Assembly (NCBI GenBank): GCA_003852775.1 | Contig: RDDZ01000101.1 | Span: forward strand, 1-33,719 | Source of the DNA: Microbacteriaceae bacterium | Lineage (GTDB): Bacteria; Actinomycetota; Actinomycetes; Actinomycetales; Microbacteriaceae | Reading direction: 5' to 3' | DNA length: 33,719 bases | Part shown: one piece after another, positions 1,957 to 24,065 of the stretch | Layout: the number at the start of each line of letters is the position of its first letter | How positions within the stretch are numbered: the stretch's first letter is position 1 | Notes under the pieces: generated by a model | The model's input: only the letters and a program-made list of their open reading frames with translations | Database searches by the model: none | Told to the model about the DNA's origin: nothing | Translations under genes and position numbers: made by a program

Positions 1957-3467
1957 GCGGGACGGAGGCCCGGCAGCCCGAGGTTGATGGTGCGACCGCC
2001 GCCCGTGGTGCCGTGCGCGGGGACGGCGCACGACTCGGCCTCGGCGCGGTCCCACGCGTCGCCGGCGCGGGTGCGACGGATCGGCAGCTGGGGGCCGACG
2101 GGCGCGGCGATGAGGTAGTGCGGGGTGGCACGCGTGACGGTCACGCTCACGACGTCGCCGGGGCGCGGCACGGGGCCGCCCTCGGGCACGTCGAAGTGGA
2201 CGAGGCGGTTGTCCTCGGCACGACCCGACATGCGCCGCGTCTCGTCGTCGCGACGGCCCTCGCCGTTGGCGACGAGCACCTCGACGGGTGTGCCGACGAG
2301 CTTCTGCGCCTCCTCGCCCGAGATGCGCTCCTGCAGCTCGATGAGGCGGTCGTAGCGCTCCTGCACGACCTCCTTGGGGAGCTGGTCGGGCATCGTCGCG
2401 GCGGGCGTGCCGGGGCGGATCGAGTACTGGAAGGTGAAGGCGGAGGCGAAGCGCGCCTGCTCGACGACGCGCAGCGTCTCGGCGAAGTCCTCCTCGGTCT
2501 CGCCGGGGAACCCGACGATGATGTCGGTCGAGATCGCGGCGTGCGGGATGCGGGCGCGGACGCGGTCGAGGATGCCGAGGAAGCGCTCCGAGCGGTAGGA
2601 GCGGCGCATCGCTCGGAGGATGCGGTCGGATCCGGACTGCAGCGGCATGTGGAGCTGCGGCATGACGTTGGGCGTCTCGGCCATGGCGTCGATGACGTCG
2701 TCGGTGAAGGCCGCGGGGTGCGGGCTCGTGAAGCGCACGCGCTCGAGGCCGTCGATCTCCCCCGCCGCGCGCAGGAGCTTGCTGAAGGCCTGGCGGTCTC
2801 CGAACTCGACGCCGTAGGAGTTGACGTTCTGACCGAGCAGCGTGACCTCGATGGCGCCGTCGTCCACGAGGGTCTGGATCTCGGCGAGGATGTCGCCGGG
2901 GCGGCGGTCCTTCTCCTTGCCGCGCAGCGACGGGACGATGCAGAAGGTGCAGGTGTTGTTGCAGCCGACCGAGATGGAGACCCAGCCGGAGTAGGTGTTC
3001 TCGCGGCGCGTGGGGAGCGTCGAGGGGAAGACCTCGAGCGACTCGAGGATCTCGAGCTGGGCCTCGCCGTTGTGGCGCGCACGCTCGAGGAGGGTCGGGA
3101 GCGAGCCCATGTTGTGGGTGCCGAAGACGACGTCGACCCACGGCGCCTTCTCGAGGATGACGTTCTTGTCCTTCTGGGCGAGGCAGCCGCCGACGGCGAT
3201 CTGCATTCCCTCGTGGCTGCGCTTCGCGGCGGCGAGGTGGCCGAGCGTGCCGTAGAGCTTGTTGTCGGCGTTCTCGCGCACGGCGCACGTGTTGATGACG
3301 ACGATGTCGGCCTCGCCGTCGGTCGCGCGGACATAGCCGGCCGCCTCGAGGGACCCCGAGAGGCGCTCGGAGTCGTGGACGTTCATCTGGCAGCCGAAGG
3401 TGCGCACCTCGTAGGTGCGCGGGGCGGACGTGGCGCGTCCTTCCGGGGCGGCGTCGAGCAGGGTCAT
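1953..3467 (-). CDS. miaB: tRNA-2-methylthio-N6-dimethylallyladenosine synthase MiaB
   Basis: MiaB is a radical-SAM methylthiotransferase that inserts sulfur and a methyl group at C2 of i6A37 in tRNA. The 504-residue protein carries the two iron-sulfur cluster sites expected: Cys26, Cys61 and Cys95 in the N-terminal UPF0004 domain, and the radical-SAM triad Cys169, Cys173, Cys176 in [13 protein letters not shown] domain follows near the C-terminus (about 400-480). The ATG at 3465-3467 is preferred because the residues after it align with family N-termini; an ATG eight codons earlier is possible. A -10-like TAGACT lies 10 bases upstream. The stop overlaps the miaA start by 4 bases. Confidence 0.96.
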
Positions 3468-20625: not shown

Positions 20626-21981
20626 CTACGCCGCCGCCGGCTCGCCGTCGAGTCCCGCGAACGCCGCGGGGGTGACCGGGCCGACCGCAGCGACCGAGAG
20701 GGGGCGCTCCACGAGCTCGGCGGCGAGCTCGCTCACCTCGGACGCGGTCACCGCCTCGATGCGACGGAGGGTCTCGTCGAGGTCGGCGAACTCGCCGAGG
20801 GTCAGCTCGCTGCGACCGAGGCGGCTCATCCGCGTGTCGGAGTCCTCGAGCGCGAGGGCGGAGGCGCCGCTCAGCTGGCCGCGCGCTCGGGCGAGCTCCT
20901 CGTCGGTGATGCCGTGCGCGGCGAGGCGGCGGAACTCGGCGAGCATGAGCTCGGCGACGTCCGGGGCGCGCTTGGGCGAGCATCCGGCGTAGAGCCCCAC
21001 GATGCCCGCGTCCGAGTAGCTCGACGCGAAGGAGTACACGGAGTAGGCGAGGCCGCGCTTCTCGCGCACCTCCTGGAAGAGCCGGGAGCTCATGCCGCCG
21101 CCGAGCACCGAGTTGAGCACGGTGAGGGCGGGGCGGCGGTCGTCGGCCGCCGCGAGGCCGGGAACGCCGAGGTAGAGGTTGACCTGCTCGAGCGGGCGCT
21201 CGACGAGGGCGAGCGGCGATCCCCGCTCGATGAGACCCGCCGCGGGATCGCGGCGCGGGACGGGGGACGCGGCGGTCTCGAGGTCCCAGCCCGCCTCTGC
21301 GAGGGCGGAGAGGGCGACCTCGACGATGCGCTCGTGGTCGACGGCGCCCGCGACGGTGATGACGAGGTCTCGCGGTCCGTAGTTCTCGCGGTAGTGGCGC
21401 CACACCGCGTCGCGCGTGACCGCGCCGATCGACTCGGGGCTGCCGCCGATCGGCCGGCCGAGCGGGTGCTCGCCGAAGACCGCCTCGAAGAAGCGCTCGC
21501 CCGCGACGTCCCCCGGGTCGTCGTCGGCCATCGCGAGCTCCTCGAGGATGACGCCGCGCTCGTTCTCGAACTCCTCCGGGTCGAGCACCGAGGACGCGAA
21601 CATGTCGGCGAGCACGCGCACGGCCATCTCGAGGTCGCGGTCGCGCACCTTCGCGTAGTAGCAGGTGTGCTCCTTGGCCGTGAGGGCGTTGTGCTCGCCG
21701 CCCACCGAGTCGAAGGCGACGGCGATGTCGAGGGCGCTGCGGGTGGTCGTGCCCTTGAACAGCAGATGCTCGAGGAAGTGGGTGGAACCGTAGGTCACGG
21801 GCTCCTCGTCGCGGGAGCCGACCGCGACCCAGAAGCCGACGGTCGCGCTCTGGGATCCGGGCACCCGCTCGGTCAGGACCCGCACCCCGCTGGGGAGCAC
21901 CGTGCGCCGGACGAGCGTGCCGCCCGACGCGTCGATGGCGAGTTCCGGGAGGTCGAGAGGGAGCTGCACCGCGCCGTTCAT
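20626..21981 (-). CDS. M16 family zinc peptidase (PepR-like)
   Basis: This 451-residue processing-peptidase-like protein has the inverted zinc motif HFLEH at residues 68-72 and the third ligand in ENERGVILEEL around 148-149. The conserved N-A-x-T element (EHNALTAKEHTCYY) and the second-domain R/Y pair in REKRGLAYSVYSF are also present. It is the equivalent of pepR, which sits next to pnp in mycobacteria; here other genes intervene. The ATG at 21979-21981 has no ribosome site but follows TAGGCT by 7 bases. The histidine phosphatase gene lies directly downstream. Confidence 0.94.
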   Translation of the reverse strand: MNGAVQLPLDLPELAIDASGGTLVRRTVLPSGVRVLTERVPGSQSATVGFWVAVGSRDEEPVTYGSTHFLEHLLFKGTTTRSALDIAVAFDSVGGEHNALTAKEHTCYYAKVRDRDLEMAVRVLADMFASSVLDPEEFENERGVILEELAMADDDPGDVAGERFFEAVFGEHPLGRPIGGSPESIGAVTRDAVWRHYRENYGPRDLVITVAGAVDHERIVEVALSALAEAGWDLETAASPVPRRDPAAGLIERGSPLALVERPLEQVNLYLGVPGLAAADDRRPALTVLNSVLGGGMSSRLFQEVREKRGLAYSVYSFASSYSDAGIVGLYAGCSPKRAPDVAELMLAEFRRLAAHGITDEELARARGQLSGASALALEDSDTRMSRLGRSELTLGEFADLDETLRRIEAVTASEVSELAAELVERPLSVAAVGPVTPAAFAGLDGEPAAA

Positions 21982-21988
21982 CGCCCCG

Positions 21989-21994
21989 AGCCTA
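21989..21994 (-). promoter_or_regulatory. Leaderless -10 of the M16 peptidase gene
   Basis: TAGGCT on the minus strand ends 7 bases before the ATG. The 44-base palindrome begins about 50 bases further upstream, close enough that a bound regulator might also affect this promoter. Confidence 0.5.
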
Positions 21995-22042
21995 CGCCAT
22001 GGAACCGGACGGCCGCCGCGCCGCATCCCCCCGGATTGGGGG

Positions 22043-22086
22043 CCAGAATGAGGACAAACAGACAAGTCTGTTTGTCCTCATTCTGG
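22043..22086. promoter_or_regulatory. 44-base perfect palindrome, probable TetR operator
   Basis: Arms of 21 bases (22043-22063 and 22066-22086) are exact reverse complements around a central AA. The core ACAGACAAGTCTGT looks like a TetR-family operator, and each arm repeats GACAA, so two dimers could bind. It is AT-richer than anything nearby. It lies directly upstream of a TACCGT -10 (22087-22092) reading into the TetR gene, and between that gene and the divergent M16 peptidase gene, so autorepression is the simplest reading. Confidence 0.75.
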
Positions 22087-22092
22087 TACCGT
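22087..22092 (+). promoter_or_regulatory. Putative -10 of the TetR gene
   Basis: TACCGT follows the palindrome immediately, so a -35 would fall inside the operator. Transcription from here would give a leader of about 165-170 bases before the TTG start at 22267. Confidence 0.45.
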
Positions 22093-22194
22093 GTGACTCG
22101 CGGAGAGCGACGGAACCCGACCGATCGGCCCTTCCCAGCCGGGTAACCCGCACCCGGGCCGCTTGCGGCACCGATCGTCGGACGCCGATCGCCC

Positions 22195-22227
22195 GTGCCG
22201 CGGCCCTCTCGCGGGTGGCCGCGGCAC
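22195..22227 (+). other. Strong leader hairpin before the TetR gene
   Basis: Arms GTGCCGCGGCC (22195-22205) and GGCCGCGGCAC (22217-22227) form a perfect 11-base stem with an 11-base loop. It ends 25 bases before the AAAGGAG ribosome site. No U-run follows, so it could be an attenuator-like structure, an mRNA stabiliser or a binding site. Confidence 0.5.
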
Positions 22228-22266
22228 CCTGCTCCGCCCCAGCACCCAGAACAAAGGAGCCCCGGG

Positions 22267-22875
22267 TTGCCGATCGACATCGTGAAGCCGCCGAAGCGCC
22301 ACAGTCTCGCGCCCGCGAAGCAGCGCATCCTCGACACCGCCGACCGGCTCTTCTACGACGAGGGCATCCGCGCGGTCGGCATCGACCGGCTCATCGCGGT
22401 GTCGAGCGTCACGAAGGCGACGTTCTACAAGCACTACGGCTCGAAGGATCGTCTGATCGTCGAGTACATCGCCTACCGTCACCTGCAGTTCGCGGAGACG
22501 GTCGACGCCGCCGCGCAGGCCACCGACGACCCCGAGCAGCTGCTGCGCGACATCCTCGCGCTGCAGGTTCGGCTCATCTCCTCCCCCGGCTTCCGCGGCT
22601 GCCCGTTCCTGAACGCCGCGACCGAGTTCACCGACGGCGCGCACCCCGTGCGCCGCGCGGTCGACCACCACCGCGAGTGGTTCCACGACCTGCTCGAGAA
22701 CCTGCTGCGCGCCATCGGCCACCCGCTCCCGGGCGACGCGTCCGACGACCTCGTGCTCGCGCACGACGGCGCGATGCTCGGCGGCTACGCGGGCGACCCG
22801 GTCGCCGCGTCGGCGGCGCTCCAGCGCATGTACGACCGCGTGCTCGCGGCCGTCCCGGAGCGCGCCGCAGCCTGA
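22267..22875 (+). CDS. TetR/AcrR family transcriptional regulator
   Basis: This 202-residue protein has an N-terminal TetR helix-turn-helix (about residues 16-65) with ILDTADRLFYDEGIRAVGID and SSVTKATFYKHYGSKDRLI. A ligand-binding helical domain follows, including SPGFRGCPFLNAATEF, a wording common in TetR proteins that control oxidoreductases. The start is TTG at 22267, 7 bases after AAAGGAG. The in-frame GTG at 22282 is too far from that site. The gene is preceded by a 44-base palindrome likely to be its operator. It is convergent with an aldo/keto reductase gene 19 bases away, a likely but unproven target. Confidence 0.93.
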   Translation: MPIDIVKPPKRHSLAPAKQRILDTADRLFYDEGIRAVGIDRLIAVSSVTKATFYKHYGSKDRLIVEYIAYRHLQFAETVDAAAQATDDPEQLLRDILALQVRLISSPGFRGCPFLNAATEFTDGAHPVRRAVDHHREWFHDLLENLLRAIGHPLPGDASDDLVLAHDGAMLGGYAGDPVAASAALQRMYDRVLAAVPERAAA

Positions 22876-22894
22876 GGCGCGTCCGTCCCGGCGG

Positions 22895-23905
22895 TCAGGA
22901 GCTCGCTCGGTCGAGGGCCGAGAGCTGGTGCCGCGTGAGGCGGATGTCGGGCGCCGACATCACGTCGAACAGCTGATCCGCGCTGCTCACCTCGACGACC
23001 GGCGCGACGACGCCCGGTCGGCTCAGGAGCCACGCGAGGGCGACGCCCGTCATCGAGGCATCCGCCTCCGCCGCCACCCGCTCGAGCACCGCGAGCACGC
23101 GACGGCCGCGCCGACCCAGGTGCGGGGCGATGTAGGCGGCCGCGTGACTGCGCGCCAGGTCGGAGCGGGTGCGGTACTCCCCCGTGAGGAAGCCGCCCGC
23201 GAGGGGGAACCGCGGCATGACGGCGAGGCCCTGCTGGGCCGCGACCCGGGCGAGATCGCCCTCGTACCCCGCACGGTGCACGAGCGAGTACTCGTTCTGC
23301 AGGGCCGTCATGGGCGCGACCCCGAGCAGACCGCACGCCACGCGCGCCGCGAGCAGGCGGTTGCCGGTGTGGTCGGACATGCCGAACGTCAGCACCTTGC
23401 CCCGGCGGATGAGCGCGTCGACCGCGAGGAGCGTCTCCTCGAACGGCACCTCGGTGTCGTCGATGTGCAGGTACAGCAGCTCGATGCGGTCGGTGCCGAG
23501 CCGGCGCAGCGAGTCGTCGACGGCCGCCGTGATGGCGGGGGCCGAGAGCCCCGGATGCGCGAGGGACTTGCCGACCTTCGTCGCGACGACGATGCGGTCG
23601 CGGTTGCCGCGGCGCCGCATCCAGTCGCCGATGAGCTGCTCGCTGCGTCCCTCGCCGTAGGCGTCGGCCGTGTCGATCATGTTGCCGCCGAGGGCCGTGT
23701 ACGCGTCGAGGATCTCGCCGACGGCCGTGTCGGACACGCTGCCGCCGAAGTGCTTGCCGCTCATCGCGGTGGGGAAGACCTCGAGCTCGGTGCCCGGGAT
23801 GCGACGGCGAGGAGGAGCCGCGCGGCCGACGATGGCGGCGGTCTCGATCGTGGTGGGGACGGGCGCGGACGTGGGTGCCACTGGCGGCACCGTCCGGATG
23901 TCCAT
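22895..23905 (-). CDS. Aldo/keto reductase
   Basis: This 336-residue NAD(P)H-dependent (beta/alpha)8 oxidoreductase has the catalytic tetrad of the family: Asp78 and Tyr83 in IDTADAYGEGRSE, Lys110 in VVATKVG and His147 in LLYLHIDD. The C-terminal VAPVVEVSSADQL is a cofactor-binding wording of this group. The first 35 residues are an extra, Pro/Thr-rich stretch before the domain. The ATG at 23903-23905 follows GAGGAGG. The gene is convergent with tetR and divergent from the PEBP gene. The substrate is unknown. Confidence 0.92.
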   Translation of the reverse strand: MDIRTVPPVAPTSAPVPTTIETAAIVGRAAPPRRRIPGTELEVFPTAMSGKHFGGSVSDTAVGEILDAYTALGGNMIDTADAYGEGRSEQLIGDWMRRRGNRDRIVVATKVGKSLAHPGLSAPAITAAVDDSLRRLGTDRIELLYLHIDDTEVPFEETLLAVDALIRRGKVLTFGMSDHTGNRLLAARVACGLLGVAPMTALQNEYSLVHRAGYEGDLARVAAQQGLAVMPRFPLAGGFLTGEYRTRSDLARSHAAAYIAPHLGRRGRRVLAVLERVAAEADASMTGVALAWLLSRPGVVAPVVEVSSADQLFDVMSAPDIRLTRHQLSALDRASS

Positions 23906-23931
23906 GTCCCCCACCTCCTCGGGTTGGAGCG

Positions 23932-23937
23932 AGGGTA
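23932..23937 (-). promoter_or_regulatory. Putative -10 of the aldo/keto reductase gene
   Basis: TACCCT on the minus strand would give a leader of about 20 bases containing the GAGGAGG site. No copy of the TetR palindrome is visible in the 160-base gap (23906-24065) to the PEBP gene, and nothing else stands out in that gap. Confidence 0.35.
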
Positions 23938-24065
23938 ACGCCCCCGTGCGACCGGGATGAGCAGAACGGGCGGTTCGCCGGAGGATCGAGATGAATTCGT
24001 GATTCGACTCGACCCGCGGCCCGCACGATGGCAACGTGGAGGGCATCGGACGCAGGAGGGCGCAG

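Follow-up and report, generated by a model that had tools for sequence, protein, structure and literature searches.

A 44-bp perfect palindrome as the predicted single-site operator of a TetR-family regulator gene in Microbacteriaceae

Genes and features of the locus

The palindrome occupies positions 22043-22086 of the window, that is, of the whole 33,719-nt stretch of DNA analyzed. It lies between two divergent genes: tetR (22267..22875, plus strand), which has a TTG start and 202 codons, and an upstream gene encoding an M16 peptidase (20626..21981, minus strand). The tetR product contains a TetR_N domain (PF00440; 40.9 bits, cut-off 24), which assigns it to the TetR/AcrR family of helix-turn-helix proteins. 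The solved protein closest to it in sequence is PDB 3g7r (E = 6.4e-37, residues 15-201), titled only a putative transcriptional regulator. We take this entry to be SCO4454 of Streptomyces coelicolor; a literature search under that name found nothing. A ribosome-binding site, AAAGGAG (22253..22259, plus strand), precedes the TTG codon and is visible as a GGAG block in the leader alignment.

Downstream of tetR lies a convergent aldo/keto reductase gene (22895..24046, minus strand), whose start codon is uncertain, followed in the window by pnp. Based on neighborhood tables built from simple frame calls, the order M16, tetR, aldo/keto reductase is kept in most of 24 relatives. The two converging reading frames leave a gap of 19 bases between them (22875-22895). 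A scan of 21900-23000 found no terminator-like sites and, because the convergent gap is this short and has no such site, the two transcripts may overlap at their 3' ends. In 7 of the 24 relatives whose neighborhoods were called, a gene for a membrane protein of 113-138 residues directly follows tetR (for example, at L049:6428-6766 and L056:6721-7068). Two copies of this protein were scanned: one had no Pfam family at E ≤ 1, and the other had a sub-cut-off match to DUF1422. The gene was not found in the window and does not follow the window's tetR, where the 19-base gap before the reductase gene leaves no room for it.

The arms of the palindrome, 22043-22063 and 22066-22086, are each 21 nt long and 100% complementary around an AA center. 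The earlier note had reported these error-free arms, and direct comparison together with shuffled controls bore it out. Specifically, over 30 dinucleotide shuffles of the window, the longest perfect arm averaged 10.4 nt and never exceeded 13 nt. Since no shuffle yielded an arm longer than 13, a chance origin of the 44-bp palindrome is excluded. The note was also correct in placing the palindrome next to a -10 element of tetR and approximately 50 bases from that of the M16 gene: the hexamer TACCGT (22087-22092) directly abuts it on the tetR side, and its left end is 48 bases from the M16 -10 hexamer.

Conservation of the operator dyad

A protein search of 99 genomes identified tetR orthologs in 24, the window's included, at E = 1e-50 or better. 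In 23 of these 24, a dyad lies upstream of the regulator's own gene, as is typical of the TetR/AcrR family; 20 of the dyads are canonical and three (G044, G037, and G014) have one arm that is approximately 4 bp shorter. The contracted sites have the form GGACAGACA-n4-TGTCTGTCC; found upstream of tetR in loci L057, L061, and L062, they constitute a natural spacing variant in which the half-sites are nearer to each other by approximately 4 bp. The operator proposal was to fall if related genomes kept tetR without any palindrome upstream, and a single genome of the 24 does so: G024, which also lacks an M16 match. G024 and the three genomes with contracted dyads count against the operator reading. 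No dyad was present at six more distant TetR matches whose loci were examined, the best candidates having 7-11 mismatches.

The site is single in nearly all of these genomes. Thus, 20 of the 24, in a set that consists partly of drafts (for example, G017 is 86% and G004 89% complete), match ACARACAGACNNGTCTGTYTGT at one place only when ≤3 mismatches are allowed, namely at the site upstream of tetR. Similarly, the source genome (2.79 Mb, 158 contigs) has one copy at ≤3 mismatches. A 28-base version of the site occurs, at the same tolerance, in 15 of the 99 genomes, among them all nine members of the genus. That there is one site per genome is one of the less ordinary parts of the system. A regulon in which the operator would also govern the aldo/keto reductase gene or distant genes was looked for and is not supported, given the single site in the source genome and in 20 of the 24.

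Pairing between the arms was evaluated in 43 aligned sites. Besides that of the window, these came from 19 relatives identified through the protein and 23 identified through an exact match to the core pattern; G024, the sites with contracted dyads (three), and nine second records of genomes already included were omitted. Because the 23 were selected on the core, it does not vary among them, and the fair test lies in the 19 protein-found relatives. Among these 19, offsets 2-7, 9-13, and 15 from the center were paired in 16 to 19, and 14 matched the core without mismatch. The predicted operator dyad, GnGGACARACAGACNNGTCTGTYTGTCCnC (22050..22079, no strand assigned), accordingly spans offsets 2-13 and 15; that is, the conserved part of the palindrome is GGACARACAGAC-NN-GTCTGTYTGTCC with one outer G/C pair. 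Within this core, offset 8 was mismatched in 37 of the 42 relatives, being A/C in 33 and swapped G/T in four (G007, G012, L086, and L117). It was a symmetric G/C pair in the remaining five and A/T in the window alone.

These data sustain one part of what had been proposed, a conserved operator-like site tied to tetR, and not the other, perfect conservation over 21 bases: conservation is limited to offsets 2-13 and 15, with the mismatch at offset 8. Likewise, the GACAA repeats noted earlier do occur in the palindrome, but the arms differ there in 37 of 42 aligned relatives, so the repeats are not conserved in both arms. Searches of the literature on the site and on TetR proteins of Microbacterium and Microbacteriaceae found no account of this operator.

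Judged from these sequence comparisons, the palindrome is very probably the operator of a self-repressing TetR-family regulator that acts at a single site, its perfect symmetry being a local event on an ancestral near-palindrome. The regulator of this pair is uncharacterized.

The tetR promoter and proposed repression

An extended -10 element of the tetR promoter, TGGTACCGT (22084..22092, plus strand), overlaps the right end of the palindrome. Of the 43 sites, 38 have the motif TGnTA at a distance of 3-7 nt from the core toward tetR, among them those of 16 of the 19 protein-found relatives; none has it toward M16. The five sites without TGnTA count against the operator reading. So do the lack of a consensus -35 and a scan for consensus sigma-70 sequences, which found no promoter. 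Since TGnTA lies past the core on one side only, the operator is taken to cover the part of the tetR promoter that holds the -35 and the spacer.

In the mechanism we propose, the TetR protein would bind the dyad and so cover this region. Once bound, it would obstruct RNA polymerase at this promoter, with steric hindrance as the expected mechanism, until a ligand released it from the dyad. In the 7 of 24 relatives that have the membrane-protein gene behind tetR, that gene would share operator control.

The M16 promoter and alternative roles of the palindrome

The predicted -10 element of the M16 promoter is TAGGCT (21989..21994, minus strand); all 45 nonredundant M16 loci have TAGGCT or TAGGGT in the 85 nt upstream of the gene. 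In the window (21979-21994), TAGGCT is approximately 7 nt ahead of the M16 ATG, a spacing frequent in relatives. The M16 message is probably leaderless, a reading prompted by how often TAGGCT or TAGGGT is found some 7 nt before the ATG. Between the operator and this promoter lies a second motif, CCCCCAATCCGGGG (22029-22042, minus strand). CCCC-n-GGGG motifs occupy a like place in many relatives and, in G026, occur also without the operator. The sequence CCCCCARTYCGGGG has one other exact match in its own genome, at C61; at ≤1 mismatch it has six matches, compared with seven for a reversed control pattern.

The position of the palindrome between divergent genes had implied control of the M16 gene as well, and M16, operator, and tetR do remain adjacent and divergent in most family genomes whose neighborhoods were called. 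Nevertheless, the spacing between the M16 start and the exact operator core is not fixed, varying between 54 and 154 bp across 37 loci, and TGnTA was missing from the M16 side of all 43 sites. Moreover, TAGGCT or TAGGGT is kept near the start in 8 of 12 family genomes that have M16 with no operator upstream (G009, G011, G019, G025, G026, G027, G032, and G034), a count that leaves out G020 and in which the other four, G010, G015, G018, and G033, have neither hexamer there. Control of M16 is not supported, because the gene has its own promoter at a variable distance, and we consider it improbable that the one operator also represses it. In another alternative, the full 44-bp symmetry is selected, the outer arms providing contacts to additional dimers or extending the footprint. 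Long arms do exist in some relatives: L088 has 18 pairs with no mismatch, and L097 and G049 have 18 and 19, respectively, with one mismatch each. Beyond the core, however, pairing in the 42 relatives was near the level expected from column composition (for example, 24% vs 30% expected at offset 21); offset 18 was slightly above it (36% vs 24%). As the window is the only one of the 43 sites paired at all offsets 2-22, selection for the full symmetry is unlikely.

A cruciform, a terminator, or the remnant of a mobile element, with no protein site at all, would account for the fold of the palindrome DNA, a near-perfect hairpin of -22 kcal/mol (z = -10.2). Against it stand the one copy per genome linked to tetR, the absence of terminator-like sites from the region scanned, and conservation in two arms around a free 2-bp center, which is operator-like. 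We give this explanation almost no weight. The preferred reading is thus an operator of tetR whose outer symmetry is peculiar to the window.

Origin of the perfect symmetry

Seven of the eight genus relatives carry TCTGTCTGTCCTCATCGTG on the right arm, with CATCGTG in place of the window's CATTCTG. At three positions the window departs from all seven of these right arms, and each time its base complements the left arm; at a fourth, offset 22, the seven vary among themselves. All eight genus relatives are mismatched at offset 8, where the window is paired. Assuming independent columns, pairing at offsets 8, 14, and 16-22 has a probability of approximately 4e-5 per site, with 43 sites seen; for offsets 17-22 alone, it is 7e-4.

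The simplest account is that template switching during replication copied one arm from the other. A single such arm-to-arm switch would explain both the full pairing in the window and the inverted cores found in G007 and G012. Arm homogenization and spacer inversion via template switching are described for yeast inverted repeats (PMC8604942). Counting against the switch, the left arm also differs from that of G002, the right-arm T at offset 8 is also present in G007, and the right-arm CATTCTG recurs in L096, which is from another genus. The closest relative compared, G002, has 89% protein identity, so the number and direction of arm changes are not fixed.

The tetR leader and its ACCCGA hairpins

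The tetR mRNA leader (22096..22266, plus strand) would begin with a transcription start near 22099. The 170-nt leader of the window was aligned to those of seven of the eight genus relatives, that of G007 being shorter and therefore left out. A GC-rich stem-loop upstream of the ribosome-binding site (22197..22225, plus strand) shows paired changes in relatives. A block of the leader is able to pair with the ribosome-binding site, some of the pairs being broken in 1-3 of 8. The predicted fold of the window's leader had only a slight stability edge over shuffled sequences, and not a clear one (z = -1.74; 14 of 200 as good).

The leaders are enriched in hairpins with ACCCGA in the loop, the other less ordinary feature of the system. 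In 44 nonredundant tetR leaders, chosen regardless of structure and at least 60 nt long after trimming, ACCCGA occurred 57 times; 34 of these lay in loops of stems of ≥4 bp, spread over 28 leaders (L064, L095, L097, and L105 are among the relatives with such loops). By comparison, 200 shuffles gave means of 6.8 ACCCGA and 1.1 hairpins, with maxima of 14 and 5. The 44 leaders are related, and the hairpin counts are therefore not independent events. In 742 kb, comprising loci L048-L126 and the window, 20 of the 21 ACCCGAA hairpins with ≥5 bp were inside tetR leaders, a figure that includes 3 second records; seven control loops matched in composition gave 1-9 each. The window's own ACCCGA-loop hairpin is weak (22109..22126, plus strand), with three contiguous pairs. 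No Rfam family was found at gathering thresholds in the leader region of the window or in the loci of seven relatives, and no literature was found on an ACCCGAA leader hairpin in actinobacteria.

A hairpin model, R1, was built from 17 selected hairpins and run on 10 genomes, in each of which the best 150 of some 2,000-3,000 candidates were scored. It gave at least 149 matches at E = 5 or better across the 10 genomes. R1 recovered the tetR leader in 8 of the 10, as follows by construction because leaders built the model, and the leader was the best match in six. It found neither the window's leader nor that of G002. Of 11 matches inspected elsewhere, 10 were in or across open reading frames, often at a GACCCGAAC codon run, and one (L182) was in no frame called. 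These inspected matches are read as chance. Pairing of the ACCCG loop with CGGGT at the window's start codon was also considered and rejected; by eye, it is not conserved in relatives.

We tentatively suggest, with somewhat less than even confidence, that the tetR lineage is under two layers of control: the single genomic operator and an undescribed cis-acting leader RNA element. The latter would consist of one or two ACCCGA-loop hairpins to which a partner binds, thereby adjusting how the repressor mRNA is translated or decays; the window's copy would be a worn one. The hairpins of these leaders may thus represent a new kind of RNA element.

Wider distribution of the core

A scan of 84,980 species for the exact 22-base core, from which records very near the window's genome may have been left out, returned 55 stretches. 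Thirty-two of the sites precede a tetR ortholog of ≥49% identity, 9 of them in genomes already in the set. A further 18 are within 1.5 kb of another TetR-like gene: 16 lie 20-112 nt before the TetR match and two behind it. These two, and the five sites with no clear TetR gene nearby, count against the operator reading. Sixteen of the 18 records are titled with genera or groups that we take to belong to the phylum Bacteroidota. The recognition helices are alike, being TKATFYKHY in the window protein and AKASFYQHF in many of the others.

Significance and comparison with known systems

The locus provides a defined regulator-operator pair with one site per genome in the relatives that carry it. 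The 43 natural variants, which include arm swaps and one perfect copy, offer a compact system for studying drift in palindromic operators and, perhaps, the return of their symmetry. In addition, the half-site is that of the cumate switch with a different spacer, which makes the relation between spacing and specificity directly testable.

Specifically, the 10-base half-sites of the CymR operator (CuO) of Pseudomonas putida F1, ACAAACAGAC and GTCTGTTTGT, are letter-identical to those of the window. The CymR half-sites are 6 bp apart (PMC5224996, PMC1654148), whereas those of the window are separated by 2 bp, so the site is not of the CymR type. Further, one arm reads ACAGACAGAC in most of the window's relatives, unlike the CymR half-site. 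CymR controls p-cymene and p-cumate genes; the likeness described here is one of operator letters. The gamma-butyrolactone receptors of the ScbR type and CprB belong, like the window protein, to the TetR family. The window protein scored 31.2 bits with the NCBIfam ScbR model, compared with a cut-off of 150, and is thus not classed as a gamma-butyrolactone receptor. CprB occupies its 22-bp site as a dimer of dimers, in the manner of QacR (PMC4150764). By analogy with QacR and CprB, it is possible that two dimers occupy the one operator described here.
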